Assembly: GCA_030062745.1 (NCBI GenBank)
Contig: CP099840.1
Span: 32,057,006-32,121,005, forward strand
Reading direction: 5' to 3'
From: Capitulum mitella
Taxonomy: Eukaryota > Arthropoda > Thecostraca > Pollicipedomorpha > Pollicipedidae
Length of the DNA stretch: 64,000 bases
The translations under genes were made by a program, and so were the position numbers. Below the pieces are notes generated by a model that saw nothing but the letters and a program-made list of their open reading frames with translations, had not been told where the DNA came from and did no database searches. This document shows, piece by piece, positions 15,635 to 63,643 of this stretch; position 1 is the stretch's first letter; each line of letters begins with the position of its first letter.

Positions 15635-15720
15635 AACGCAGTGAAGAGAAGATTTTTGATATGACTATTCCCAAAGAAAACGTAGCCAATTGCTGGGCGA
15701 AAGTCGTCACCTAAAATTCG
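15635..15720 (+). repeat. diverged copy of a segment inside the 16.0-16.3 kb ORF
   Basis: This segment and 16,195-16,280 share an alignable stretch, both readable as EEKIFDM-x-IPK. The copies are clearly diverged and lie about 560 bp apart in the same orientation. It is either a duplicated exon or a repeat fragment. Confidence 0.5.
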
Positions 15721-16000: not shown

Positions 16001-16321
16001 ATGTATGCATTGTGTTATTATAAGCTAATTTTTTTGTATATCTGCTTTGCCATGTTACACACCACTTTGCACAATGAAACGCATATAAGAAGACGAAGAG
16101 GCTCAAACAAGAGCGTAAAGCATGATGTCAATGAACGAATCAAGGTTCAAGGACCGAATGAAACTTTCGTGAAAACCGCTTCGAATCAACTACACAACGA
16201 TAATGAAGAAAAAATCTTTGATATGATCATTCCTAAAGGAAACATGGACGTTAAGTTATGGCCGAAAGTGGGAAACAAAGTAGTAAGTATAAAACAAAGC
16301 ATGGATGGACTACATGTATAA
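16001..16321 (+). CDS. hypothetical 106-aa ORF with signal-peptide-like start
   Basis: ATG at 16001, stop at 16321. The first 20 residues include a hydrophobic stretch (YKLIFLYICFAML) that could be a signal peptide. It is followed by a basic RRRR cluster and a hydrophilic remainder that includes EEKIFDM. A related piece of the last part lies at 15,635-15,720, which has its own stop and no obvious start. No family is recognised and codon use is AT-rich and unremarkable. It could be a chance ORF in a repeat; confidence that it is a gene is low. Confidence 0.2.
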   Translation: MYALCYYKLIFLYICFAMLHTTLHNETHIRRRRGSNKSVKHDVNERIKVQGPNETFVKTASNQLHNDNEEKIFDMIIPKGNMDVKLWPKVGNKVVSIKQSMDGLHV

Positions 16322-18924: not shown

Positions 18925-21900
18925 ACAATCCCCTACGCCCTGGACGTCTCGCTGAGCGCCTCTCAGCGGCTCACCATTCCCGGCGTGCTGCGCTCCGTGC
19001 AGGAGGCCACGTGCATACGGTTCGAGCGGCGAGAAGCAGCGTGCCGCGGTGGCGGCGGCGGCGACGGCGGCCCGGCCGTCTGCTTCCTCGCCGGCCGCCA
19101 TAGGGCGGCTCACCTGGGCCTCGCTGGCGGCGGCGGCCCCCAGCCGGTGACTCTGGCCGCTGGCGACGGTCCGTTCTGGACGCTGCACCTGGTGGGGCAC
19201 ATCCTCGGCCTGCCACATCCGCACACCTGCCGACTGAGCCGGCCCGCCGTCCGCGTGCACCCAGAGTTCCTGAACCCGGCATGGTACGAACGCCGCTCGG
19301 CGGAAATGCTTGTGTGCGTCCCAATCTCTGAGTGCCTGAGAGCTGGCCGGACGGATGCTGTCCATAGGTCAGAGTTCTCTTTAACCTGCAAGCAATGGTT
19401 TTGGTTCTGGTTTTCAGCCTGGACAGCATGATGTGTTTGCTGATCTTTATTGGGTCATTCCGCGTCAAATCGCACAAGTTGCCCGACTCCTTCCGATTTT
19501 GATGAAAGTTGGCAGGCTTGGTACCTATTGAAAAGTAGACATCCACCAGTTGTTAGCCCTAGGTGAACTCTGAGATCAAAAGTGCAGGTCACGAAAGGTC
19601 ACTGGTTTTTACAGACATTGCATGATTTTAATGCCGCTAACTCGGTGACAGATCGTCACAGAAAAGTGCGATTAGCGCGGTTGGATGCGGAATGTGCCAG
19701 CTTTTAGAAATGGGTCAGTTTTTTCCGTCGACCTCGCGATGACCTTTGATCCGACTACGTCAAATTAAGCACTTTCGGGGTTGACCATGTTTCGCCACCC
19801 TGATCGCGAGAATGTAGCACAACAGGTGTCATATTACGTGGAATAAGCTTGACAAAACAGTGGGCAAATTCCAATTTCTTTAGATATTTCAGTTCATGTT
19901 ATACCAAGCGGCAATTGAGAAATATGCCCTGAGGCTATTTGACGAATGTTGGTGGATTTTGTGCCTTTCGTTTGCCTGATTATGCTACAGTTTGGTGTGC
20001 ACAATATCCTGGTTGTGTATTACACATCTGCCGAACCTTAAATTACTTTACCTAAAAGGTCAGGGGTCAAAGGTCATGACATGCCATCCAGATTTGACAA
20101 GTACCTTTTATCACTTCTTCAACGAAACTGAGTTCATCCAATCTTATTAGACCCGAAAGCCAAATAAGACTATCTTAGCCGTGCTTCGGTATTTAAAGGC
20201 TGTTTAAAAGCCAACCGAGGTCATTGACCTTGATTAGCCCGGGACGAACTATGGTGGCCATGGATGTAAATTTTTGGGCACTTATTCTGAATTTCACATT
20301 TATTCACATGAATGCAGTGTTGCAACACCACTTCCCTGAAAAGCTGGAGCTGTTCCTGTAACTGGTGTTGCGCACAGATAAACGATGTTTTATGTTCACG
20401 TCATAAACACGTAAACACAGGTACATGTTTTCCGACCTACGGATTCAAGGAATGACGTCATTACTAAAAAGTAAGCGTCCTCTAGAGTACCTTGGACAAA
20501 TTTACGATACGTGGATTATTTGATGAGATGACGCGGAACTGACCTGTTGCATTGCTATTCCTACTGACTATACTTTCGTAAATGCAGCAACGAGATTTCA
20601 GATTTTTATCACAGCCTTAACGGCTTCTAAACAGATACACCATATCTTTCAGGTCTAAACCTCACAAGCTGATCCACAAGCTGACTCAGTGCCGGCGCTC
20701 TTGCCGTCTCTCTCTGACGCGGGCTCCGAGCTCTCTGCCGACGGGTTTCTCGCAGTGTCCCGTTTGTCCAGCGTTGTTCACCGCTCGTGCGTCCACTGTT
20801 CGGCTGGCTGTAATGGTTGCCTTCAGGGCCGGCCCTGGATGAACGAATGCCGAGACTCCAGGCGAGACCGCGGAGTGCGTCAGCGTGGCCTCGCGCCGCC
20901 AGCTTGTGCAACCGGCGAGCATGTGTCGGGAATTCTCCGATGCCTTCACGCTGGCTTTGAAGCCGCCTCGAGTCGGCGTTTCAGGTTGACGTATTGATCT
21001 AAAACGCATAGCAAGTCATAACGATAGTACGGATCACGCCGGGACGGTGTGCGAGATCGCCAAATAGAGCTGGAAGGTTGTCACACTGATTATTTGATAG
21101 ACATTTCGAACAGGACGTATGAAACACGTATTTGTGTGAGGCGAAACATGGTAATGGTGGCATAAAGATCGGAAGATCTGTTAGGACAAAACAAAAGAGA
21201 CAGAGACAGCGAGGGAAAAGAAATGGGACGAAAGGAAAGAAAAAAGGGGGGGGGAATAGACGACAAAATCTGAGAACACACGGGAGAGGGAGAGAAATGT
21301 TCTGTTAATTAATAACATCATAACAAATCCTTGTCAGGAAAACAAAATGTCTGCCAAAGAGATGTATATGCTAAACGTGAGACTGCACGATATAAAGCCA
21401 AATCCAGGATAACTTCGTAAATTTCCGGACATAAAAAACATAAAATGTAATATATATATATATACTTTCGCATCAAACCTGTATTGGATTTCCTGTACTA
21501 GTATGCAACATACTAGTATGTCTGTATAGCTACCAATGCTATCAGTCATTCCCGTTACGAAAAGGTTCAAAGACTGCATTGAAATATCCTGTCTCCGCAG
21601 TGGCAGAATGCCCTACCACTCGTTACTGGTTCCGAAGGTTGACGGCGGCAGCGATGGCGTGCCGAACTCCACTGCTCTGACTCAGCAGTGCACAGTGAAT
21701 TTCAGGAATTTCACGAGCCACTGTACCTATCACGCGACGTTCAAGGCCGTTTCTCGCTTATGATTCACGCCGTGCCAAGGGCGGCGTATCTAGATCGCGG
21801 CGCACCACTCCAGTTCTGGTCGACGTCTCTCGAGCCAAGCCCGTGACTTACCGTCGTCGGTCTTCTGACAGAGCAGGGAGCACGTGACTGGCACTCGCGA

Positions 21901-24549
21901 CGTTTTTTAGTCATCTCCGGCTAGAAGGCCGGCACGTTTTCTGAATGGTATTCTAGAGCTCGCACTGTTCGTGAAACGCTCCACCAAGGTGAAGGATACA
22001 TCACTTGAGAGCTCTTGTAGCTCTGTCATTCCAGTACGGCATGACGTGATGGCTGATTTATTGTGACGTCGACAGGAAGATTCTTCTTCCCACCTGATAT
22101 AATTTACTTAAAAAAGCATGGATTGGCTGCGTTTTTAGTCTGGCGCTATAAATCAAACAGCTTTTACGTGTGTACCGGCCTTTTGGCTAATTAAGGATCG
22201 GTGTACGGTTCAGAAAATCCTTTTATTTACGTAGAAACATTTTCCGGAGTGGTGCCGGCCTCCCAGTCAGGAACAAAGTGACACTCAAAAACAAACGTTA
22301 GACAGGGTCGCCGCAAACAGCGCAGTTAAATCATCAACCAAACAAAAACAAAATGATCACCGCGGACTGCGGTAACAACGTGTGTTCTAGAAATCACCTC
22401 TCCAATCGTTCATCAACGCGTCACCAATGCAAACGCTAGTTGCTGAACACCTTTCGCTCACGCCTCACGCAAACCTACTCAGAGCACTAAAGGAAACTGT
22501 ATTCTTTTGGGGATGTCTGGGCAGTTCCAATGGTAAAAAATGCATTCCCAGTAGCACCAGCAGCTCCCGCAATGTTAAATGATAATTTTCTAGTGGTAGG
22601 CATGGAAAAGGAAATTATGGGATGTTTCATTATCTTTAACTTAACTCAATCCTGTACACCCGTAAATCCAACCGTTCCGTCGCCGATATCTAGATGAAGT
22701 CAAAGTGGACCTTGCTAAACATAGTGGCAACATTTTGCGAAAATGTTGCCACTATTTGTAATTGACGGTCAACTGAATCAAATAGCATGAAACATGCGAA
22801 ACGTTGACGGAACATTATGGATTGGAAACTACAATGCCGATGTCTCCAATTTCCGTAGAATTTGTAGGACAATGACGTTACGTGTTGCAATTTTTGTGCG
22901 TTTGTTGTGGAGCTTGTGGGTGTGGTTCTGTGGGCTTATCGTTTTAGTAAACGCATTGACATCTCTTATGCTCCGCTCACGGCAGTTTTACATGCTGACT
23001 TATGACCTAGGTTCAGACCATATTTTACACGATTTTTTAGGCCCGCAATTGGAAACACTTATTTTTTTCAATCAAGAAATGTTTCTTTCTGAAAGAAGGA
23101 AAAATCTTTATAGAACCTTAGTTGCCAAGGGTCTAATCACATTTGGCCCAAGCTGACCTGGTTTATCCTTCAAAAAACTGCTGCTTATTTTCTTTGCGTG
23201 CATATCGCATGTGACCAAACGTGATTCCTCCCATACCTTCTTTCTTTACAATTTATACGTATTGCTTTAGTCCTCTTATTTCTGGTCACTAAATATAAAC
23301 CATGTCCATCGCAAGAATGGCTTGTCTCCAAATGTCAAGCTTTATCGCCATATCACAAGTCTTTATCACCTGAAATTCAAGCGAGATGCCAAACTACCAC
23401 GGTCACTTGTCAAGTACGTGTAAAAACAAATGTTTTTTTGGGGAGAGCTAATAATGGCACGTTTGGAGGGGGGACGGCGCCATTTTTATCAGCTTGCAAT
23501 ATGGGAATGCCATAATGTTGCCGTGGCGATATCAAGGACAAATTGTTGCTGGCTACCACAAAGTATCGACGGACATGTTGTTCAGGGCCAGGGTCGACGC
23601 GCTGATGTTCCGATTGAGTAGTGTTATTATGATAGGACGAAATATCGCTATCAGCGACAAAAAAAATACGAGTCAAATGAATTGTACCTGAGGAAACGGA
23701 AGCACATTTAGTGCTAAAATACTACTGATTTATTTTGCCAGCGTTACCTGCGGCGGTACCCAGAGATTCAAATATTCAACTCTGAATTTAACACGAGCTT
23801 GGCTTATTGGCACTCAGAGGGCAAAATAAACACTGTTTCGTTGACGAACTGCTATTATGTACCCCGTTGCCGAGCATTAATGTGGCTGAAGTTGCCTTGA
23901 ACAGTTCACACGCTGTTCCGCATCATTTGCCTGACAGAAAACCATTGAGCGCTTCATTAACCACCATTTTGGTGATCTATGGTATTTTAATGTTTGTTAA
24001 CCTGGTCGTTACGCTAATGCTTTTGAAACGCATCTTTAATGGCAGCCTTCAGCAGCCCATAGGATCGGACTGAAACGAACCTTAGAAGGAGAAGAGTTAT
24101 CGGTATTCAGAGGTGCAACAAAAATATAAATGTGTACTGCACTGCATTGTATTGTATAATTTCGGGGTTATCCACACAACTGGTGGCTATAAGGCCCAGC
24201 GTCAAACATTTAAAACCGTAAACACTCACAAGACAATGTAACTGCAAAGCGTGTGCCTCGGTATGTACACTTTTCGTTACCCGGCATGTGGCGCTTCAGC
24301 TGGCGACCGAACTTCGCACGGCGAACAACGAGCCTCGAGTGGTAGCTCATTGTACAAAACTGGCGCACGTCAGCAGAACGCAGGGGTGGAACGCATCTGG
24401 AGGCTACCTAGCAGTACCTGCTGGCTGTTGAGGTTTTGTTCATCATCTTTCTTCTCTGCTGACGGGGAATGGTGTACTGCTTCTGACTCTCTACTGTCTA
24501 CCAGCAGAAACGATTTCCTGACTCTCTCACACTTCCTCTATTTCTCCCT

Positions 24550-24596
<47 letters not shown>

Positions 24597-26325
24597 GCCG
24601 GAGAGACGGAGAGGCTGACGCCTGTCTCCGTCTCTGTTCTCTGTCGGTAGAGCCTGGCCTACCATCCCCGTCTCTTCTGCCTCTGCCGACGCGGCCAGGC
24701 CCCCTGTCTCCGTTTCCGCCCCCTCTGCCGGCAGGGGCTGGCGGGCCGGCTGCACCACGGAGAGCTGCCGCTGGCGTCGCTTCGACCCGAGCTCAGCGCT
24801 GCAGCTGACCGCTGACGAGCTGAGCAGCGAGCCGCCGCTGCCGTCGCTGCAGCCGCAGCCGCCGGCCGCCCTGCTGGCGGTGGGCCGCGCCCGCCGCGCC
24901 GCCCGGCTCTCCCGGCTGGACCGGCTGGCGCTGAACGAGGCGTACGGCTGCGGCCGGCCGCCGCGTCCCTGCCCGGCCCGCCGCGCCTGCAAGAACGGCG
25001 GCGTCCTGGACGAGTGGTGCGGCTGCGCGTGTCCGGCGGGGTTCGCCGGCGCCGACTGCGGCTCCAGACAGCGCGGGCCGCCGCCGCCGGACGCCGCCTG
25101 CGTCCGCCACCTGGAGCAGGGCGCCGAGCTCGACCTGGCCGCGCTCGGCTTCCTCGCCGACGATCTGTCGGCGTCGGTCGACTTTTGCGTGGTGAGCCTG
25201 CGGACGACGTTCGAGCGGCCGCGGCTGGCGGTCAGCATGGCGGGGCTGGACGCCGTGTCCAGTATGTCGAGCCAGCAGGCCGCCGAACTGTTTTCAGAGG
25301 CGATTTTGTGTACGATGAAGATGTACATGTTCCGAAATGGGAGTTTTATCAGAGCCTTCTGCATCCTGGACTATTTAGGGGAATATCTGTCGCTTAGTGT
25401 GTCTAGCAATGCTGTGGATATGTTGCTCTGGTTAGACGCGTCTCAGGTGCACGTCAGGAAGATGATGCTGGAAGCTCGTTTGGTTGTTCGAGCGAATGAG
25501 GACCCGTTTAAGAACCTGACGAACAACAGATCTGCCCCCTTCTCGAATCCAAAAATGCGCTCCTTGAGGGAGAAGGTCAACAACCAGCGGCTTATCATTC
25601 TTGCTTGTGTTATTTTTTCCCTTATGGGACTAAATTATGTCATCATTGTCGCCTTCCGGAAGTACTGGGAACGTAAATATGGCACCTCTAGCATTGTCCG
25701 ATCATCAGGGAGTTGGCGAGCAGTGGGTGACGAAGAGGAGCCAGAAGACTGGACAATCAAGGTAAGCTATTCTGATACCACTTGTGATGCAGACGAGGAA
25801 AAAAGCAACACAGGAACTCCCATTTTCGGGAGCAGCTTTTTTGGAACAGAAAAGCCTTCCGACAAGCCAAACAAAGAAGAAGCTTCCCATAAAGACGCAA
25901 TGGCCTCAAACGCTCCCGCTGAAACTCCAAAATCTCCACAAACCAAAAAACGAGTAAGTTTCAGCGACCAAGCCGGCTCACCGAGGGCAAGCAATCAAAC
26001 TTCAAAAGAGAGTGTTCTTGATACAGAGGAAAGACCCTCTGCCACCGCCCCTCCGGAGCCTGAACAACCCGAATCGTCGTCAGAAGATTTAGATGCCATC
26101 GGGCCGGACTCCGCAACGCAGAGCCCAGAACCCGTGGAAGACAGCAGAGAGCCTATTTCTGACGAAGAAATCAATTCTGAGTCATCCACCAGTTCAGACT
26201 TGTGGAGCTCCACGTCCTCGTCGAGTGATTTTGATGAATCTGTATCAGTGAGGCTGTCCTTTATGCAGAAACTGAAAAGATGGCTTACCAGGAGATCGAA
26301 AAAAACTTCCAATGAAATACAATGA
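18925..26325 (+). CDS. membrane-anchored astacin-like pseudoprotease (5' incomplete)
   Basis: Two exons are supported. Exon a is 18,925 to about 19,313 (GTGCGT donor; an alternative at 19,367 keeps the same phase). Exon b is 24,735-26,325, after a GCCGGCAG acceptor, and joins in phase 2. Exon a opens with an astacin N-terminal signature (IPYALD...SLSASQR, then TCIRF) and reaches the zinc site at 19,186-19,218, H-L-V-G-H-I-L-G-L-P-H. The three zinc ligands of HExxHxxGxxH are present, but the catalytic Glu is Leu. Exon b begins just before the Met-turn, which reads S-A-L-Q-L instead of SxMHY (24,793-24,807). The domain closes with the usual LSRLDRLALNEAYGC. Next come a Cys-rich EGF-like module (about 24,970-25,062), a CUB-like region (about 25,090-25,490), a transmembrane helix (about 25,591-25,657) and a Ser/Glu/Pro-rich tail of about 220 residues. 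Astacins are secreted or membrane zinc endopeptidases; by sequence this one should be inactive. Signal, propeptide and further 5' exons were not found. Confidence 0.8.
19430..20300. repeat. AGGTCA-rich repeat-like sequence in the astacin-like intron
   Basis: Noncoding sequence with clustered AGGTCA/TGACC words (for example around 19,585-19,600, 19,740-19,755 and 20,058-20,080). It resembles in style the sequences at 1-960 and 10.0-11.0 kb. Confidence 0.4.
20300..22780. other. intronic sequence, nothing identified
   Basis: A GC-rich patch (20,640-20,990) is open on both strands without recognisable motifs. A purine-rich run with a G tract (21,180-21,300) and a short TA repeat (about 21,450-21,465) follow. 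No RNA gene was recognised. Confidence 0.35.
22794..23156 (+). CDS. hypothetical ORF with one hydrophobic helix
   Basis: A 120-aa ORF from a true ATG, with a second ATG at 22,872. It lies inside the large intron of the astacin-like gene. A strongly hydrophobic segment around residues 30-58 ends in VNALTSLML followed by a basic residue. That layout (VN-x4-LML, basic residues, later GSD) is shared with the ORF at 23,807-24,073. No family is recognised. It may be an alternative or decayed membrane-anchor exon, or chance. Confidence 0.25.
   Translation: MRNVDGTLWIGNYNADVSNFRRICRTMTLRVAIFVRLLWSLWVWFCGLIVLVNALTSLMLRSRQFYMLTYDLGSDHILHDFLGPQLETLIFFNQEMFLSERRKNLYRTLVAKGLITFGPS
23807..24073 (+). CDS. 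possible duplicated membrane-anchor exon
   Basis: An open stretch of 88 codons without an ATG start, ending in a TGA. A hydrophobic helix (LVIYGILMFVNLVVTLMLL) is followed by KRIF. By eye this resembles the transmembrane segment of the astacin-like gene 1.6 kb downstream (VIFSLMGLNYVIIVAF then RKYW). It also shares the VN-x4-LML pattern with the ORF at 22,794-23,156. It could be an alternative last exon or a relic of exon duplication. No clear acceptor was found. Confidence 0.25.
   Translation: MALRGQNKHCFVDELLLCTPLPSINVAEVALNSSHAVPHHLPDRKPLSASLTTILVIYGILMFVNLVVTLMLLKRIFNGSLQQPIGSD
24541..24597. repeat. (CT)n microsatellite upstream of the astacin-like exon b
   Basis: A C run followed by a nearly uninterrupted CT repeat, ending about 140 bases before the exon b acceptor at 24,734. 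Ser/Leu-rich and Arg/Glu-rich ORFs through it are artefacts. Confidence 0.9.
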
Positions 26326-27057: not shown

Positions 27058-27765
27058 ACAGTCGATTCGAGACGTTCGAGACATTCGACACATTCGGTCA
27101 TCTGCAAAGTTGACAACTGATTCCAGACATTCCACACATTCGATGCATTCGCGTTTAAAGTTAGCAGTCGATTCGCGACACTCGACACATTCGATACAAT
27201 CACCGTGCGTTGTTTGGAGCCGATTTGCGACATTGGACGCATTCGATACATTCACTGTGTACAGTTCAGAGCCGATCCGAGATATTCGATACATTCAGCG
27301 TATACAACTTGCAGCCGATTAAAAACGTTCAGTGTGTTTGGTACATTCACTGAATACAGCTTGCAGCCGATTTAAGACGTTCAACACATTTAATACATTC
27401 ACTATGTACTGTTCGCAGCCGATTTGAGATATTCCACACGTCCGATACATTTATCATGTATAGTTGTCAGCCCATTCAAGCCATTCGACACATTCGACAC
27501 ATTATTCGTCGCAATTGTAAAGTTGACAGCCGATTCGAGACTTTTGACACATTTCACACATTCGCATTTGTAGTTTTAAGCCGATTTGATAAGCTCGCCA
27601 CATTTGATACATTCACCGCGTATACTTTGCAGCTGATTCAAGACATTCGTCACATTCGATACATTCACCGTGTATAATTTGCAGCCGATTCAAGACATCC
27701 GACACATTCGATACATCTACCGTATATTGTTTACAACCAATGTGAGACATTCGACACATTCGAAT
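27058..27765. repeat. minisatellite, period about 51 bp
   Basis: About 13 imperfect units recur, each with GCAGCCGATT, then GACATTCGACACATTCG and GATACATTCACCGTGTATA-like parts. GCCGAT-type landmarks recur about every 45-56 bases. The period is close to a multiple of three, so both strands carry repetitive ORFs. No evidence of coding. Confidence 0.9.
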
Positions 27766-41500: not shown

Positions 41501-43092
41501 GTGGCAGCTGCTGTGTCGTCCGTCATTTGTCAACCGCCTGGAGGCCGTCTGAGGTTGTTGTGCTGCGTGCTGTCGTCTGGGGTCGTTGTGCTTCATGTTG
41601 TTGTGGGAGATTGTGTTCCGTTGTGTTGTCTGAGCTTGTGCTCCGCATTCTTGTTTTCCAATCTTGTGCTATGCATTGTCTGAACTTTCCGTGTTCCGTA
41701 TTGCCTGAGCTCACTGTGCTCCGTGGTGTCTGAGAGCTGGCTGTGCTCTGTGTTGTCCGGGCTCGCTGCTCTTCGCGTTGGTATTGCCTGAGCTCTCTGT
41801 GCTTCTTGTCTGAGCTGGCTGTGCTTCGTGTTGTTTGAACTTGTTGTGCTCCGTATTGTCTGAGCTTGCTGTGCTCCGTATTGTCTGAGCTGACCGTGCT
41901 TCCTGCTGTGTGAGCTTGTGCCCTGTGTTGTCTGAGCTGACTGTGCTCCGTGTTGTCTGAGCTCGCTGTGCCCCATGTTGTCCGTGATCGTTGTGCTCCA
42001 CGTTGTTGTCTGAGTCGGCTGTGCTCCGTGTTGTCTGAGCCGGCTGTGCTCCTTGTTGTCTGAGCCGGCTGTGCTCCGTGTTGTCTGAGCCGGCTGTGCT
42101 CCACGTTGTTGTCTGAGCCGGCTGTGCTCCGTGTTGTCTGAGCCGGTTGTGTTGGGCAGCGCTCCGAGGGCCAGCCGTCGGCCAGCGAGGACGGCTCGGA
42201 CGACGACTCGGACCGCTCGGAGGCCGGCTCCGACAGCGACCAGGGCTCGGGGGCGGGCGGCCGGCCGGCGCGCACCGCCGACGAGCGCGAGACGGACGAC
42301 GAGGAGTGGGAGCGCTTCCAGAGCCGGATCAACAAGCGCGGCAAGGCGCTGGAGACCAGGTCGCGCGTCTCGCACCCCGTGCACTCGCCGCACTTCCCCG
42401 ACGAGAAGCAGGAGTACTGGTGGGTGTACGTCTGCGACCGCAAGAACAAGGGCCTGGTGACGGCGCCCTTCCAGGTGACGGACCTGGTGACGGAGGCAGA
42501 GGTGGAGCTCAAGTTCACGGCGCCGCGCAAGCCCGGCCTGTACACGTTCACCGTGATGCTGCGCTCGGACTCCTACCTCGGTTTCGATCAGTCCAAGGAT
42601 CTCAAGGTGAGAAGTGCCGCGGCCTGGGGCGGGTGGGATTTTAACTGTCGCACTAGGCCCGCGCATTGGGGTATTTGTTACGCTTCCGACACGTTTATAT
42701 GATATATGTGAAATATACGCCATGTAACACAGGCCCGCGGATGCGTCCAGGAAGATTTGATGTTGAACGAAGCTTTTCGACTCGTATGCCCCAATGTTTC
42801 CCGAAATTTGTGTACCACTGGTGACGGCCGTAGCGTCACCGGTGAATGGTATGGCTTAGTGGTATTTCATCCTACAGACCAGTTGACAGTGTCAAATACA
42901 TCGCTGCGTTCACTTGGCCGTGTTGACTGACGTTTTGCCTGCCGGCAGCTGGACGTGAAGCAGGCGTACGAAATTCCGGTGGAGCACCCGCAATGGGACA
43001 TAAGCGACGACGAGGAGAAGTCCGAGGACGAGAGCGACGTGGACGAGTTCGCCACCGACGACGAGCTGGACGAGTCGGAGCTGGAGGACTGA
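30216..43092 (+). CDS. SEC63: SEC63 translocon J-protein, complete, 12 exons, 758 aa
   Basis: Sec63 is an ER membrane J-protein. It works with the Sec61 channel, Sec62 and the Hsp70 BiP to drive post-translational import. Exons: 30216-30339, 34434-34545, 34964-35078, 35562-35664, 35840-36063, 36417-36718, 36858-37092, 38293-38446, 39955-40145, 40766-40891, 42160-42606, 42949-43092. All junctions keep frame; introns are GT-AG except intron 4, which is GC-AG. The protein starts MAGQKFEYDESG. Transmembrane helices lie at about 14-38, 81-96 and 194-216. The lumenal J domain (about 105-165) has HPD at 136-138. The Sec63/Brl region follows from about residue 227, interrupted by a Lys-rich (521-562) and an acidic Ser/Asp-rich stretch (563-620). 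HPVHSPHFPDEKQEYWW and LRSDSYLG sit near the end of Brl. The C-terminus is acidic, as needed for Sec62 binding in other species. Length matches animal Sec63 proteins. The exon 9 donor (GTCTGG) is weak. Confidence 0.97.
30708..30785 (+). ncRNA. tRNA-like SINE/pseudo-tRNA remnant
   Basis: Contains an A-box-like TAGCTTAGTTGG and, about 35 bases on, a B-box-like GTTTGAGTC, the spacing of a tRNA. The B box has lost its CpG (GTTCGA to GTTTGA), in keeping with the CpG-free tract it sits in. No good acceptor stem was found, so it is probably a tRNA-derived SINE head and not a working tRNA. Confidence 0.4.
33040..33350 (-). repeat. dispersed repeat, copy 2 (inverted relative to 5.1 kb)
   Basis: On the - strand this shows the same order as 5,095-5,345: two CACTGCAAAAATG cores about 160 bases apart, with AATAAATATGTATGTTAAT between them. 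It lies in SEC63 intron 1, downstream of the CpG-free tract. Confidence 0.55.
35665..35839 (+). other. SEC63 intron 4, GC-AG type
   Basis: The 5' splice site reads AAAG|GCAAGT and the 3' site TTCTCAG|CG. Using GC as donor keeps exon 4 (phase 1) in frame with exon 5 and restores the expected INK-A-YQALTDD junction after the J domain. Apart from GC the donor matches consensus well, typical of GC-AG introns. Confidence 0.85.
37981..38031. repeat. two overlapping perfect inverted repeats in SEC63 intron 7
   Basis: 37,981-37,990 pairs with 37,997-38,006 (10-bp arms, 6-nt loop). 38,001-38,013 pairs with 38,019-38,031 (13-bp arms, 5-nt loop). They share ACGTTT, so the two hairpins are mutually exclusive. 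Function unknown. Confidence 0.85.
40165..40490. repeat. GC-rich minisatellite in SEC63 intron 9, period about 46 bp
   Basis: About seven units containing GGCCGGGTCGGCTGCCGT, then CATGGGGAGGG and GCGGTCCGTGTCGG parts. It starts about 20 bases after the exon 9 donor. Several long Arg/Gly/Pro-rich ORFs on both strands come from it and are not genes. Confidence 0.95.
41530..42156. repeat. 24-bp minisatellite filling the end of SEC63 intron 10
   Basis: Units of the type CTGTGCTCCGTGTTGTCTGAG are repeated some 25 times, most regular after 41,700, and run directly into the exon 11 acceptor (CAG at 42,157-42,159). The last pyrimidine/TG-rich stretch before the splice site is itself repeat-derived. 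Because 24 is a multiple of three, long - strand Thr/Ser/Gln-rich ORFs run through it. These are artefacts. Confidence 0.92.
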
Positions 43093-45089: not shown

Positions 45090-45212
45090 GACCACAGACA
45101 TCAAGCGGACTGTGCCGCTGTCTTTTTGACAGGCGACCTCTTGGGTCGGGGGTGGAATGCGCGACATCCCGTCAGCATTCCCATGTGCCAGACCTGGGCG
45201 GTGCTGCACCGT
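45090..45212 (-). mobile_element. gypsy-type retrotransposon RNase H fragment
   Basis: On the - strand this reads FTVQHRPGLAHGNADGMSR, the signature at the end of the RNase H domain of Ty3/gypsy polyproteins (HRPG-x2-HGNAD-x2-SR). Only this scrap is present, with no reverse transcriptase, integrase or LTR recognised nearby. It abuts, or slightly overlaps, the start of the integrin-like fragment on the + strand. Confidence 0.75.
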
Positions 45213-46060
45213 GAATTTGTTCAAGTGTCTGCTCAGCACCAACAGAATCGACTGCGTCCAGGTGGTGACCGACGGCCTCAGGGGAGCAGATGACACCTCA
45301 CTTTCGCCTCCGAGCGAGAAGGAGCTCAAGGAGGGTCAATGGATGGCAGTGACTGTCAGAAGCCAGGTACCCGGCAAGAACGTGCTGATGTTCGCGCACC
45401 GGCACATCGAGCGGGACGTTGCCAACGACTACCACTGGGGCCACGGCCTCTGCTACACCCTGCATCAGGATCTCAAGTTCAATGAGGCCTGGGTGTCGTG
45501 CCACAACCTTGGCACTAGCAGGGCGCACGAGCAATACGGCTACTGCCAGTTGGGTACGTCAGGCCTGCTGACGGACGACGATGATCTTTTGGTTGGCCTC
45601 CCCGGTCCGTGCATCTGGCGAGGCGCTGTGTTCGCCGTCAACGTGTCGGACAACTTTCTGCGTCGCGACAAGACCCAGTGCTTCGGCCCCGTCACGGAAA
45701 GGACTTTTCCTGTCGACAAGTACAGCTACCTAGGCATGGCCAGCCCAGGGCAGGTTTTTTCCTGGTGCCAATGCAGACTCTCTGGTTGGAGGAGCGCCCA
45801 GGTCCAAAGGCACCGGACACGTCGTCTTCTTTTCAAAGGAGCATGTGGTGCAGAAGGCGCTGAAATACGGCCGCATCCTCGACGGAGAGACGCTCGCTTC
45901 TCAATTTCACTACGAAACCTGCGTGCCAGACTTTAACTCTAATGGGATGACGGATTTGGTGGTGGGTGCGCCCTTGCACTCGGCCGACACGACTGGTGGC
46001 GCCATCTGTATCTACAAGACTCGTCGTTCGCGGCTTTCGACCGAGACGAAAGCCCGTGGG
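45205..46060 (+). pseudogene. integrin alpha beta-propeller fragment, copy 1, frameshifted
   Basis: Integrin alpha subunits form the ligand-binding beta-propeller of alpha-beta adhesion receptors. This piece reads in order FKCLLSTNRIDC, EGQWMAVTVRSQ, HEQYGYCQLGTSG, LVGLPGPCIWRGAVF and VDKYSYLGMA, a typical order for PS1/alpha3/alpha6-like (laminin-binding) subunits. Near 45,740 a 2-base loss relative to copy 2 shifts the frame. The second frame continues through a calcium-loop-like DFNSNGMTDLVVGAP to about 46,054. It then breaks into a 45-bp sequence also found next to copy 2. No signal peptide, legs, membrane helix or tail were found. Probably a pseudogene; an assembly or sequencing error at the frameshift is the alternative. 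Confidence 0.8.
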
Positions 46061-49554: not shown

Positions 49555-49599
49555 CTTATGCTTGCACGAGTATTTACTCATACACCCTTATAACGTTTC
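49555..49599 (+). repeat. 45-bp identical repeat, copy 2 (5' side of integrin copy 2)
   Basis: Identical to 46,066-46,110. It is followed by two copies of GTACGAGGCC and then integrin-like sequence. Confidence 0.9.
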
Positions 49600-49620
49600 C
49601 GTACGAGGCCGTACGAGGCC

Positions 49621-50331
49621 GTCCCTGGTCCGTGCACCTGGCGAGGCACTGTGTTCGCCGTCAACGTGCCGGACAACTTTCTGCGTCGCGACAAGACCCA
49701 GTGCTTCGGCCCCGTCACGGAAAGGACTTTTCCTGTCGACAAGTACAGCTACCTCGGCATGGCCGTGGCCCAGGGCAGGCTCTTCCCTGGTGCCAATGCA
49801 GACTCTCTGGTTGGAGAAGCGCCCAGGTCCAAAGGCACCGGACAGGTCGTCTTCTTTTCAAAGGAGCATGTGGGGCAGAAGGCGCTGAAATACGGCCGCA
49901 TCCTCGACGGAGAGACGCTCGCTTCTCAATTTCGCTACGAAACCTGCGTGCCAGACTTTAACTCTCATGGGATGACGGATTTGGTGGTGGGTGCGCCCTT
50001 GCACTCGGCCGACACGACTGGTGGCGCCATCTGTATCTACAAGACTCGTCGTTCGCGGCTTTCGACCGAGACGAAGCCCGATGGGATTGTTGGGGCGCCC
50101 GAGTCGCGGTTCGGCTTCGCGCTAGCCAGCCTGGCCCACCTGAAGAAAAACAGCCTCGAGGACCTGGCCGTGGGCGTGCGTCTCGAGGGCCACGGCGTGG
50201 TGTACGTGTACCTGCGGGGGAGGTGTCGAGAGGGTCTCGGCTTCGAGCTGGCTCAGGTGATCCGCTCAGAGGACGTGGCCGGAGCCGGGGCGCCCATCAC
50301 CTTCGGTTACTCGCTGGGCGGCGGCACCGAC
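49621..50331 (+). pseudogene. integrin alpha beta-propeller fragment, copy 2, open but truncated
   Basis: Starts abruptly at the point equivalent to PGPCTWRGTVF of copy 1 and stays open through VDKYSYLGMAVAQGRLF, VPDFNSHGMTDLVVGAP, EDLAVGV and YSLGGGTD. Homology then stops within a propeller blade at about 50,331; the reading frame closes at 50,358. The calcium-binding loops are imperfect (the expected third Asp of DxNxDG is His here and Asn in copy 1). It has the intact frame that copy 1 lost, but no N-terminal blades, legs or membrane anchor. It could be an internal exon of a larger gene whose other exons are unrecognised, since GTAACT at 50,338 might act as a donor. A truncated duplicate is more likely. 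Confidence 0.7.
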
Positions 50332-50334
50332 TAT

Positions 50335-50414
50335 TTTGTAACTTTAATGACTATATGACTATCTTGTAACTCCAAAAAGACAACAGAAACAGGGATGTGT
50401 ATGTATACTGCAGG
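50335..50414 (+). repeat. repeat shared with 53,737-53,809
   Basis: CT-AAAAAGACAACAG-AACAGGGATGTG with flanks is nearly the same in both places. It lies exactly where integrin homology in copy 2 ends, and again in intron 1 of the zinc-finger gene, so it is probably a dispersed repeat that broke the integrin copy. Confidence 0.6.
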
Positions 50415-60700: not shown

Positions 60701-63643
60701 CGTGATGTCTCATCTTGCACTTGCATGATGCTGTGTGATTGGGCGTTCAGTTTCCTTCGAAGCGATACCCATTTCGAGTCTTTCTGACCCTTGGTTGCAG
60801 GGTTACCCTCAAAATCTTGTCTGAACCGGAACCATTTTGGAAAGAAAAACTGTGCAGTCTTCCGCCGCTGATCTCAGGTATTGAGCATTGCGTGCGTCGT
60901 TTAGCGCATTCGATCGTGAATTTAGCCATCAACTGCAGCAGGTAAGTGATTTTTTGTCTTCCAGAACTCCGCGTTGGGACGTGCAGACGTTAACGAAAAC
61001 ATAGATTGTAACCAAACCACAGTAAAATGCGACCATATTTTGGGTTGATATAGGGGGACAAAAGAACGGGCTGCACGTCGATGCACTTTATTCCTAAAAC
61101 CCTTTAGCTTCAGTGCCGATATCAAAGTGAAATCAATAAGAAGTGCGAGAATGAATGCATGCACCTCTTCCAGTTCCACAGTTTAGGCGGCGTGGCGCCC
61201 AACCTGTGGACCGGAGGTATTCGGCTGCCGGTGCCAACAAAAAACGGCACACAGAACCACATTGGCTCCTTTTTTGAGTCGCTGCGATCTCTGGATCGTC
61301 AGCACCATATCCTTGCAGTCTTTGAAAACGCCCAGAAAGGGCTTTTTGACATTGTCGTCGCTTGCGCATGGCCCGTGCCGCTCACATTGGAATGTGCTGC
61401 ACACCACGCGATTACCTGTTCAAGTTATCGTTCCAACTGGATACGTTTCGAGCCGATGCGAGCCGTGGTTGCCTAGAAAACTTGCCGGGACCGAGGGAAA
61501 ATCTTTTTTTGCTGTTGATAAGTCTCATTTTGCGCGTTGTTCTTTTGGGTGAAAAATTCCCGTAGAAGCGCGCAATACGCACGAACGTTGGGCTGCAGTA
61601 CGACGAAAATCGGTGTGCGGCACGTGCCAATCCGTCCAGACGTTTGGGCTGTGGACTGGAAAAGAGGTCTGACGACTGGTGCGTGGAAGTGAAAACATTT
61701 GTCCCGGAATAGTCGTGGTAGAAGAGGAAGTTTACAAGCTGACGCATCGCAAATGTCACAGCATAACATTCAAGGCAATGAGCTTTCTTCAAGTGAAAAT
61801 TACATTGTTTTGTGCCTGTAGTTGCGAAGTTATTAGCCTCCAGAAAATGTCACCGCCGGCCGGGTCTGGCCGCTCAGTTGGATTTTCGTCTGCTAGTTGA
61901 AGTTGGACACTCGGCCTTCGGCCTCGCGCGTAATGAGGGGGAGAAAAAACTACCTGCGCTAGACGTCAGAACGTCAAACCTTTATTGTACACAAGTTTCA
62001 TATGAGGAGCACTAACCGGACATATCGGCAAACATACGCATAACACGGATTACAGATAGGGTTGTGGCAATAATAAGACTGGTGCCTTGCGAGAATATTC
62101 AGCTGGTGTTTAAGGCGAATTTTTTTAAGTGCGCAGTGCGCTGTTTCTGTAATCGAAGTGCTTTACTGGCATTTGTACGCCACAAGTTGGACAGAATTTA
62201 AGTCTAGAAGTTCATCAGACTAGGCATGCTTAAGAAATCTGAAGTTCAACTGTTGTTGCGTATCTGTTAAAACTAACTGCTCTCGATAGCCTTCTAATCG
62301 TGATGATTTGAGAAGAATCGGCAGGTGAATTGTCCCAGCGGTTGATCGCCCTTGCACAGCATTCACTTTGCATTAACTCCAAACGGATGTGTAATAACTG
62401 CGTATTTTGAATAGATATAAAAGTATATTGAATTTCGAGATATGCAATTAACAGTTGCACATCAGTGTAACAACTGAATGGATATGGAAGACGTCTTCTT
62501 TTATACTGGTGGTATTTTGGGGCTTTGGCATGCAGCGCCATCTAGTTTCCGGAGTTTTGCTTGAACGCCCCATGGTATGTTTGCATCATGCCTTAGTGGT
62601 TCGTTTAAGGTGGGCAGGTGTTACTTGCTCGAGCGTGCAGTGATTTTTCAACGTGTTCGACTGTCCAGGAGCTGTGTGCCCCGGGTGTTGGCTTTTTTAC
62701 AAGGCCTCAGCTGTTGGTGGCGATGTGCAGGGCGAGGCAGGCTCCATTTGTGTTTGTTTCTAATGCAGCGGTATGCTGTGTTGACTGGACAGTCGCTGTC
62801 TCAGTGGTCCCCGTGCCGGACCGGGCGCGGCGTCCTGTCGCTGCGTACGCCGCGCAGGGTGAGCGCACCGGTGACTGCCCTTTCGCCAGTGAACCCACCG
62901 CCGCTCTCCGTGCCGGCCAGGTGTGCGGCAAGCGGTTCCGCGCCTTCAGCCACCGCGTCGAGCACATGCTGATCCACGTGAACGAGCTGCCGTGGTCGTG
63001 CCGGCTGTGTCCGAAGACGTTCCGCACCAAGTCGGCACGGACTGCGCACCAGCGCGTCCACGCGCCGCCCGAGACCGGCCTCAGCTGCTCCGTCTGCCAG
63101 CGACAACTGGCAGACGCCGCCTCGCTCCGACAGCATGCGCGCACGCACGCCGAACGCAAGCCGTTCGTGTGCGGTGCGTGCGGCCACCAGTTCGCGCGGC
63201 GCAAGGACCACGCAGTGCACGTGCGCCAGCACACGGGCGAGCGGCCGCACACCTGTCCCGAGTGTTCGCAGACGTTCGTGGCGCGCTCGCGGCTGAACCG
63301 GCACCTGCTGTTGCACCGCGACAAGCAGTTCCGCTGCGGCTGCGGCCGCGCCTTCCGGCGCCGCTATGAGCTGCGGCGGCACGCGCCGGCCTGTGGGCAG
63401 CCGCCGCCGCCGCCCGCGCCCCCGCCGCCGCCTCCGCCCCCGCCGCCGCCGCCCCTGCCCCCGCCGCAGCAGCAGCAGCAGCTGCCAGTCCCCTACCTGT
63501 CGGCCGTGGTGCTGCCGGAGTCGGCGTCGACGCTCTACTACCAGGTGGTGGCGCCGCTACCGGCGTCACAGGAGAGCCCGGAGCGGGCGGCCTCTGCCGA
63601 CCGGGTGTCGCAGCCGTCCGCCCAGCTCGTGCCGCCTCAGTGA
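53034..63643 (+). CDS. ZAD-like C2H2 zinc-finger protein, 5 exons, 438 aa
   Basis: A probable nuclear DNA-binding transcription factor. Exons: 53034-53156, 54479-54607, 55341-55448, 57284-57517, 62921-63643. Each is a whole number of codons with GT-AG sites, so all introns are phase 0. Exon 1 (41 codons from ATG, GTAAGT donor) is short and inferred from its signals. Residues 49-52 (CVLC) and 104-107 (CPSC), followed by a helix, resemble the paired CxxC of ZAD dimerisation domains. Exon 4 adds a poly-Pro run from a CCG repeat. The first finger is split by intron 4: FECK at the end of exon 4, VCGKRF at the start of exon 5. Five regular C2H2 fingers follow, with one HTGERPH linker, then a sixth irregular CGC...HxxxC finger. 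The tail has a long Pro run, five Gln and no known domain. Target unknown. An extra exon in intron 4 (5.4 kb) cannot be excluded. Confidence 0.85.
54752..54793. repeat. inverted repeat at the end of the CpG-free tract
   Basis: 15-base arms (54,752-54,766 and 54,779-54,793), 14 of 15 pairing, around a 12-base CpG-containing loop. It sits in intron 2 of the zinc-finger gene. Confidence 0.75.
55185..55320 (+). repeat. 22-bp tandem array before zinc-finger exon 3
   Basis: Six units of exactly 22 bp, each ending in CTGAC (TTGAC in one unit; at 55,206, 55,228, 55,250, 55,272, 55,294 and 55,316). The last CTGAC lies about 20 bases before the AG of the exon 3 acceptor (55,339-55,340), at the usual branch-point distance. 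Confidence 0.92.
57905..58235 (+). repeat. repeat family H, copy 1
   Basis: Shares order and words with 61,680-61,910 and more weakly with 60,375-60,600: a segment readable as NI-x-PGIV, and a G/C-rich GGCCGGG...GGCCGCT(T/C)AGTT segment followed by CTG(G/C)T-GTTGAAG. The 128-aa ORF here (57,805-58,191) is not preserved in the other copies, so it is not called as a gene. Confidence 0.5.
58245..58304. repeat. palindromic ACATG/TGACAT repeat
   Basis: 58,275-58,304 is a near-perfect palindrome (12-base arms ATGTATGTCATG and its complement around a 6-base centre). It is preceded by a related CATGACGTGACATATGTCAT stretch. Confidence 0.8.
58562..59785 (+). mobile_element. piggyBac-like non-autonomous element B
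   Basis: Flanked by TTAA (58,562-58,565 and 59,782-59,785) with ends CCCGCGCACG... and ...GGGGACGGG. It is about 1.2 kb and fuller than element A; its right half matches A in inverted orientation along some 500 bases. Near each end sits a G-run/C-run palindrome around CAGTTGACTG or CAGTCAACTG. Many AGGTCA/TGACCT words lie in the right half. No transposase. It lies in the last intron of the zinc-finger gene. Confidence 0.8.
60375..60600 (+). repeat. repeat family H, copy 2
   Basis: GTGAAATCATTTCTCCCGAAATAG through TTTGTAAGCTGACAC matches the left part of copy 3. TTTCTGCTGGTTAAAGGAAG matches its right end. It is strongly diverged and noncoding. Confidence 0.45.
61680..61910 (+). repeat. repeat family H, copy 3
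   Basis: See copy 1 at 57,905. Contains GTTGCGAAGTTATTAG, then CCGGCCGGGTCTGGCCGCTCAG and CTGCTAGTTGAAG in the same order as copy 1. Confidence 0.5.
61920..62915. other. intron 4 of the zinc-finger gene, 3' part
   Basis: The frame of exon 5 stays open upstream to 62,618, giving a longer ORF, but the acceptor TGCCGGCCAG at 62,911-62,920 and the split finger place the exon start at 62,921. Nothing else identified. Confidence 0.5.

Follow-up and report, generated by a model that had tools for sequence, protein, structure and literature searches.

Gene structure at the locus

We analyzed a 64,000-nucleotide stretch of the genome of the arthropod Capitulum mitella (contig CP099840.1; hereafter the window, C2:32057006-32121005 in the assembly searched here, which comprises 477 Mb in 16 contigs). 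The window contains a gene for a predicted membrane-anchored relative of the astacin metalloproteases in which the catalytic residues are replaced. This gene, referred to as the window gene, forms an open three-exon frame whose translation has 743 amino acids, with a signal-like start, a propeptide, an astacin domain, an EGF module, a CUB-like domain, a transmembrane helix, and a tail in that order (Table 1).

Table 1. Exons, motifs, and domains of the window gene (window coordinates).
Feature	Position	Strand	Description
Exon A (probable, inferred)	16001..16282	+	Start codon, signal-like stretch, propeptide; ends ...DVKLWPKVGNKV, then GTAAGT
Exon B	18925..19283	+	N-terminal half of the astacin domain through the zinc helix; starts in phase 0, ends in phase 2
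Zinc motif HLVGHILGLPH	19186..19218	+	Catalytic Glu replaced by Leu; three His retained
Exon C	24735..26325	+	C-terminal half of the astacin domain, EGF, CUB-like domain, transmembrane helix, tail, stop
Degenerate Met-turn SALQL	24793..24807	+	SIMHY type in astacins
EGF-like module	24970..25059	+	Six Cys, all invariant in the 14-row alignment of transmembrane astacins (A1)
CUB-like domain	25084..25512	+	Four Cys, two invariant in A1
Transmembrane helix	25588..25656	+	Hydropathy; helix with a block predicted local distance difference test (pLDDT) of 80-93
Cytoplasmic tail	25657..26322	+	222 amino acids; 20% Ser, 19% Asp+Glu

An earlier reading made from the letters alone (the sequence-only reading) had described two exons, B and C. 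Both are real, and a third, 5' exon probably precedes them. The motifs on which that reading relied could be read directly: TIPYALD..SASQR at 18925, TCIRF, and HLVGHILGLPH in exon B, and FDPSSALQL and LSRLDRLALNEAYGCG in exon C, followed by an EGF-like module. By itself, exon B (18925-19320) scored 23.8 bits against Pfam PF01400 (cut-off 22.5), with BMP1 as its top match among solved structures (E 0.0014), and the frame of exon C remained open in 0 of 5000 shuffles. The Astacin-profile search that had been proposed as a check likewise recovered the astacin fold, as the joined protein matched PF01400 over positions 5-188/189 with 25.6 bits, above the same cut-off.

We scored the exons and their joins using an astacin profile built from this genome with the window excluded. 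Exon B (to 19283) scored 44.0 bits, exon C 14.3, and exon A nothing (-1.7), and the joins A+B, B+C, and A+B+C reached 47.9, 60.6, and 66.2 bits, so that exon A contributes 3.9 bits on top of B and 5.6 on top of B+C. The profile ranges matched by B (15-108) and C (145-200) were complementary, and the top score among 500 shuffles of the joined protein was 3.2 bits. Exon A begins with a hydrophobic, signal-like stretch (about 16001-16069, judged by eye) and ends in LWPKVGNKV before its GTAAGT donor. It is in phase with TIPYALD, and the resulting border resembles the LWP...IPY border of astacins such as L001 (LWPNAEIPY); among 20000 shuffles, the frame of exon A stayed open in 7. The 3' end of exon B probably lies at 19283 (ATG/GTACGA) rather than at the alternative 19313 (80.7 vs 79.2 bits). 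A W-x5-C motif at the B/C junction aligned with the transmembrane family in one alignment and not in a larger one; because this alignment was not reproduced, the motif was not used for fixing the exon B donor.

Other features were observed around these exons. At 15642-15704, part of the 3' end of exon A recurs as a decayed copy (alignment score 47; maximum of 300 shuffles, 32), which points to an ancient exon duplication on the 5' side of the gene. A CT dinucleotide array of 20 copies (24557-24596) precedes the exon C acceptor, and variation in its length could affect splicing. The intron between B and C also holds same-strand open reading frames at 22872-23153, 23271-23420, 23455-23688, and 23792-24073, some with hydrophobic stretches. 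None matched a Pfam family above its cut-off, and together they could be a small nested membrane-protein gene.

Degenerate catalytic domain and membrane anchor

Astacin domains carry the motif HExxHxxGxxH, in which the Glu is the general base; this consensus is given for the eight astacin domains of PMC10828956. In the window protein the motif retains its three zinc-binding His with Leu in place of the Glu, and both the Met and the zinc-binding Tyr of the Met-turn are gone, as the sequence-only reading had described for the two motifs. At the place of the family Glu that follows the third His (ExxRxDRD) and anchors the N-terminus, the protein reads PHTCRLSR. The Gly of the zinc helix and the cysteines of TCI and YGC are retained, and the domain carries a Gly-rich insertion. 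A protein that lacks the Glu and the Met-turn residues is not expected to hydrolyze peptides by the astacin mechanism. For the lost and kept residues, including the disulfides C42-C198 and C64-C84, we used the feature definitions in PMC9848320. The C42-C198 pair is retained and both cysteines of the C64-C84 pair are gone; such a joint loss, together with retention of the TCI and YGC cysteines, is expected under structural constraint.

The modules that the sequence-only reading had placed after the catalytic domain were largely recovered, with an EGF cysteine pattern, a transmembrane helix, and a tail running to the stop at 26325. The assignment of the CUB-like domain found no match to Pfam PF00431 at E up to 1, although CUB domains lead its fold matches; against the CUB domains of the same genome, hhalign gave E 0.042 with a probability of 1.3. 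The EGF module matched Pfam EGF_2 below its cut-off (E 0.057). A search of solved structures with the profile of alignment A1 matched meprin beta (E 2e-4) and proteins with EGF modules, and no CUB domain was named among the 27 matches listed.

The tail contains an RVSF motif (25951-25962), which we take to be of the protein-phosphatase-1 docking type; an RVSF-type pattern occurred in 0 of 14 other tails scanned. A pattern scan of the tail found no dileucine, YxxPhi, or PDZ end. Two strong donor-like sites lie within the tail frame, at 25762 (AAG/GTAAGC) and 25954 (CGA/GTAAGT), and alternative tails arising through them are possible. Beyond 25762 the frame was open in 0 of 5000 shuffles, and beyond 25954 in 8 of 5000.

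Membrane and secreted relatives in the same genome

To place the window gene within its family, we searched the genome with Astacin and obtained 52 matches, of which many occupy a long single frame. In each of eleven genes (L009-L012, L013b, L014-L019), one frame encodes an HExxH-bearing astacin domain, an EGF module, a CUB-like domain, a transmembrane helix (hydropathy over 2.0), and a tail. The architecture, which had seemed to be without known parallel, therefore recurs within this genome. Two similar membrane astacins with HExxH (L013a, L021) are split or cut, bringing the members with this motif to 13. The membrane astacins in single frames resemble the window gene in domain order, EGF and CUB-like cysteines, transmembrane helix, and a cysteine pair in the catalytic domain, and differ from it in keeping HExxHxxGxxH and lacking interruption, whereas the window gene has a broken motif, three exons, and the 222-residue tail. 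Nor is a long tail singular, as those of L009 and L024 also exceed 200 amino acids; the tails of 10 of the 11 single-frame HExxH genes have 8-71. L009 (1-4001) keeps HExxH and has the Met-turn SVEHY, with Glu for Met, and a tail of 227 amino acids. The uninterrupted frames of all 11 genes, set against the three exons of the window gene, would be compatible with retroposition or intron loss during the expansion of membrane astacins, both of which are possible.

Eight further relatives have lost the catalytic Glu (L022, L023, L024, L025, L026, L061, L062, and L063). A transmembrane helix lies in the same frame in L022, L023, and L024, and a similar stretch in a second frame in L025 and L026; L061 has a hydrophobic stretch at the end of its piece, and the pieces of L062 and L063 stop before the place of the helix. 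Counting the window gene, three His are kept in two of the nine broken genes, the other being L023 (HMMVHALGLMH), and Leu replaces Glu in four (the window gene, L022, L024, and L063), so that this Leu may have been inherited within the broken membrane group. Because a search with exon C gave further, weaker places, three of which were read, all these family counts are lower bounds. The genome holds no close copy of the window gene, the next-best scores being 36 bits for exon C and 24 for exon B. The sequence-only reading had held that orthologues with an intact HExxH and Met-turn would make this copy a pseudogene; the paralogues with intact HExxH are only distant ones and hence do not make the open frame a pseudogene.

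We then compared the window gene with the membrane group beyond and within the catalytic domain. A profile of the post-catalytic region, built from the 11 transmembrane genes with HExxH and excluding the window, matched exon C at E 4.9e-9 (29.9 bits, bias correction 10.0 bits) across the EGF module, CUB-like domain, and transmembrane helix, and the top of 200 shuffles was 1.4 bits. Based on this profile, alignment A1, and hydropathy, the window protein has the order EGF, CUB-like domain, transmembrane helix, and polar tail. It also has both members of a cysteine pair, AC...AVC, between TCI and the zinc helix. Among transmembrane rows, each of these cysteines occurs in all 11 active ones and in 5 of the 7 broken ones; among secreted rows, each occurs in none of the 15 active and none of the 5 HLLGH ones. 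The rows cover 11 of 13 active and, not counting the window gene, 7 of 8 broken transmembrane genes, together with 15 of 20 active and 5 of 8 HL secreted genes; those spread over more than one frame were left out (L013a and L021; L026; L034, L035, L043, L045, and tolloid; L027, L047, and L048, respectively). With moderate confidence, these sequence features point to a transmembrane astacin by architecture.

A group of five secreted genes (L020, L028, L038, L039, and L042) reads HLLGHxxGLxH, with Glu replaced by Leu and the three His and RPDR kept. The Met-turn Met is present in all five, and the conservation of the replacement across them suggests a maintained zinc-binding pseudoenzyme. The window gene shares with this group the change of Glu to Leu with three His; in contrast to it, the secreted genes have no transmembrane helix by hydropathy, lack the cysteine pair of the membrane type, and keep the Met-turn Met. 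Because the secreted genes lack the helix and the cysteine pair, close kinship through the common Leu was rejected with moderate confidence, although the astacin-domain tree by itself would allow it. The Leu of the window gene appears, with moderate confidence, to have arisen separately.

Elsewhere in the window, degenerate 52-bp tandem repeats form several arrays at 27075-27763, downstream of the gene. The neighboring region 35611-63640 includes a Sec63 Brl domain frame (42142-42699) that scored above its cut-off, an integrin-alpha-like frame (49594-50355) with an FG-GAP match below its cut-off, a frame similar to the latter by eye and without a Pfam match (45130-45933), and a C2H2 zinc-finger frame (62609-63640). 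The cuticle family Chitin_bind_4 had at least 150 matches across the genome (150 of 627 candidates scored), as fits arthropod DNA.

Interpretation and comparison with known systems

ADAMs, rhomboids, and other families have well-known pseudoproteases. Like the window protein, the pseudoprotease ADAMs (ADAM7, 11, 22, 23, and 29) are membrane metzincins without the general base, and in ADAM7 (HQLGHNLGMQHD) and ADAM29 (HHLGHNLGMNHD) the three His are kept and the Glu is lost (PMC11266112). They belong to another family and typically keep the Met-turn (PMC11266112), which the window protein has lost. The window protein also differs from ADAMs in having no disintegrin or Cys-rich domain, and neither a reprolysin nor a disintegrin Pfam match was found at E up to 1. 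By analogy, it may nevertheless be comparable to the ADAM pseudoproteases; in ADAM22 and ADAM23, interactions are made by other regions on the surface of the dead domain (PMC11266112).

Meprin beta is likewise a membrane-anchored astacin with an EGF module, and differs in having MAM and TRAF domains and an active site and in lacking a CUB domain (PMC9848320 and general knowledge). No MAM or TRAF Pfam match was found in the window protein at E up to 1. The meprin beta tail is short. The astacin-EGF-CUB order is that of the nematode NAS type, represented here by L005-L008 and L029-L031. These genes share the order with the window protein and differ in having an active motif and no transmembrane helix after the catalytic domain by hydropathy; L029 and L031 have a single hydrophobic stretch, located before that domain. 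In L005, the one member scanned, the CUB domain was matched by Pfam.

A literature search at the level of titles and abstracts, mostly covering sources outside subscription journals, returned no paper on an astacin pseudoprotease or membrane pseudo-astacin among the matches listed. In the available part of a 2024 review of metallopeptidase pseudoenzymes, astacins are named once, as metzincins only (PMC11266112), and that of a 2023 astacin review has no word beginning "inactive" (PMC9848320). PMC10119388 contains the words "transmembrane astacin", and the passages of PMC4398375 concern chitinase. No pseudo-metalloprotease of the astacin family was found described in the available parts of the two reviews; the window gene would encode one, set inside a mixed family of intact and broken membrane proteins.

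The loss of catalytic residues together with the retention of the fold landmarks, EGF module, transmembrane helix, and long frame fits a membrane pseudoenzyme. The proposal of a pseudoenzyme rather than a protease is supported to that extent; the idea that its architecture stands alone is not. Judged from sequence, the product is likely a catalytically dead membrane protein and, given that, function by binding or regulation is also likely. With the shape of the enzyme kept, the residues for cutting lost, and a family of membrane-tied relatives in the genome, some apparently working and some disabled, the protein probably serves in binding or regulation at the cell surface. As a whole, we favor, as the somewhat more probable account, a single-copy open frame encoding a cell-surface pseudo-astacin that acts by binding. 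Such a protein would be unable to cut peptide bonds, and its three His may still bind zinc in a structural role. Its extracellular part, made up of the astacin, EGF, and CUB-like modules, would form a binding platform, with ligands, substrates, or sister membrane astacins as the likeliest partners. Recruitment of cytoplasmic proteins by the polar tail may connect this binding to the cell interior; signaling through the tail is a tentative suggestion.

Several results weigh against this interpretation. Trees of the astacin domain were built without L044, L046, and the alternative window join, and with L040 and L041 as one tolloid row. The window gene grouped with L023 and L024 (support 89/77), and also after removal of the zinc and Met-turn columns (69/88, with 63/61 for the transmembrane side), both weak placings, and a topology that groups it with the secreted HLLGH genes was not rejected (approximately unbiased test, p-AU 0.317). 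Its branch is very long, with 3.07 and 2.42 changes per column in the two trees, its residue make-up is unusual, and any tree position is unsure because long branches may meet, as the tool warned. The internal donor-like sites make the length of the tail uncertain. Moreover, so diverged a gene can be one that is losing function. Decay of a former membrane astacin under relaxed selection, leaving an open frame without function, is the main non-functional alternative and in our judgment an unlikely one. It would fit the longest end branch in the trees, an identity of at most 26% to any other row of the alignment, the several motif losses with the Gly-rich insertion, and the decayed copy of exon A upstream. 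However, 743 codons are free of stops, with the shuffles of exon C never open, and the six EGF, two invariant CUB-like, TCI, and YGC cysteines are all retained. Third-position guanine plus cytosine content is also high, reaching 0.84 for exon B and 0.95 for 24736-25290, in both cases above the first two positions.

An artefactual join of exons from separate genes or transcripts is very unlikely. The 5.4-kb intron does hold other same-strand reading frames, those at 22872-23153 and 23792-24073 with hydrophobic stretches, and the two usable exon B donors agree with the consensus at no more than 5 or 6 of its 9 positions. Against this, exon B stops past the zinc helix and exon C starts ahead of the Met-turn with complementary profile ranges, the joined score exceeds the sum of the two parts, and the most pyrimidine-rich acceptor in the exon C frame (24735) requires a phase 2 donor, as found at 19283 and 19313. 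Hydrolysis with another residue as the base is more improbable still: the three zinc His are in place for it, but the Glu, Tyr, and Met of the site are all replaced and no ExxRxDRD follows the third His. The main rival for the use of the protein is a dominant-negative or stabilizing partner of the active membrane astacins, acting in mixed dimers and not as a ligand receptor, which we consider rather unlikely. Meprins form dimers, and the 11 single-frame HExxH relatives have the same membrane anchor, both of which count in its favor, whereas the meprin dimer interface lies in domains absent from the window protein. Pseudopeptidases are also known to regulate active kin at times (PMC11266112).

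The change of Glu to Leu is present in two groups of differing architecture, one membrane-bound and one secreted. More speculatively, and with low confidence, an ADAM-like system may have arisen from astacins in an arthropod lineage, with active, shedding-type surface enzymes and dead sisters as receptors or regulators. In that case, there would be at least nine dead sisters including the window protein, with the active site lost in several ways and the window protein acting through its 222-residue tail. The mixed set of membrane astacins with and without an active site would offer a natural series in which to ask what becomes of the astacin fold after catalysis is lost, and whether dead members regulate active ones.

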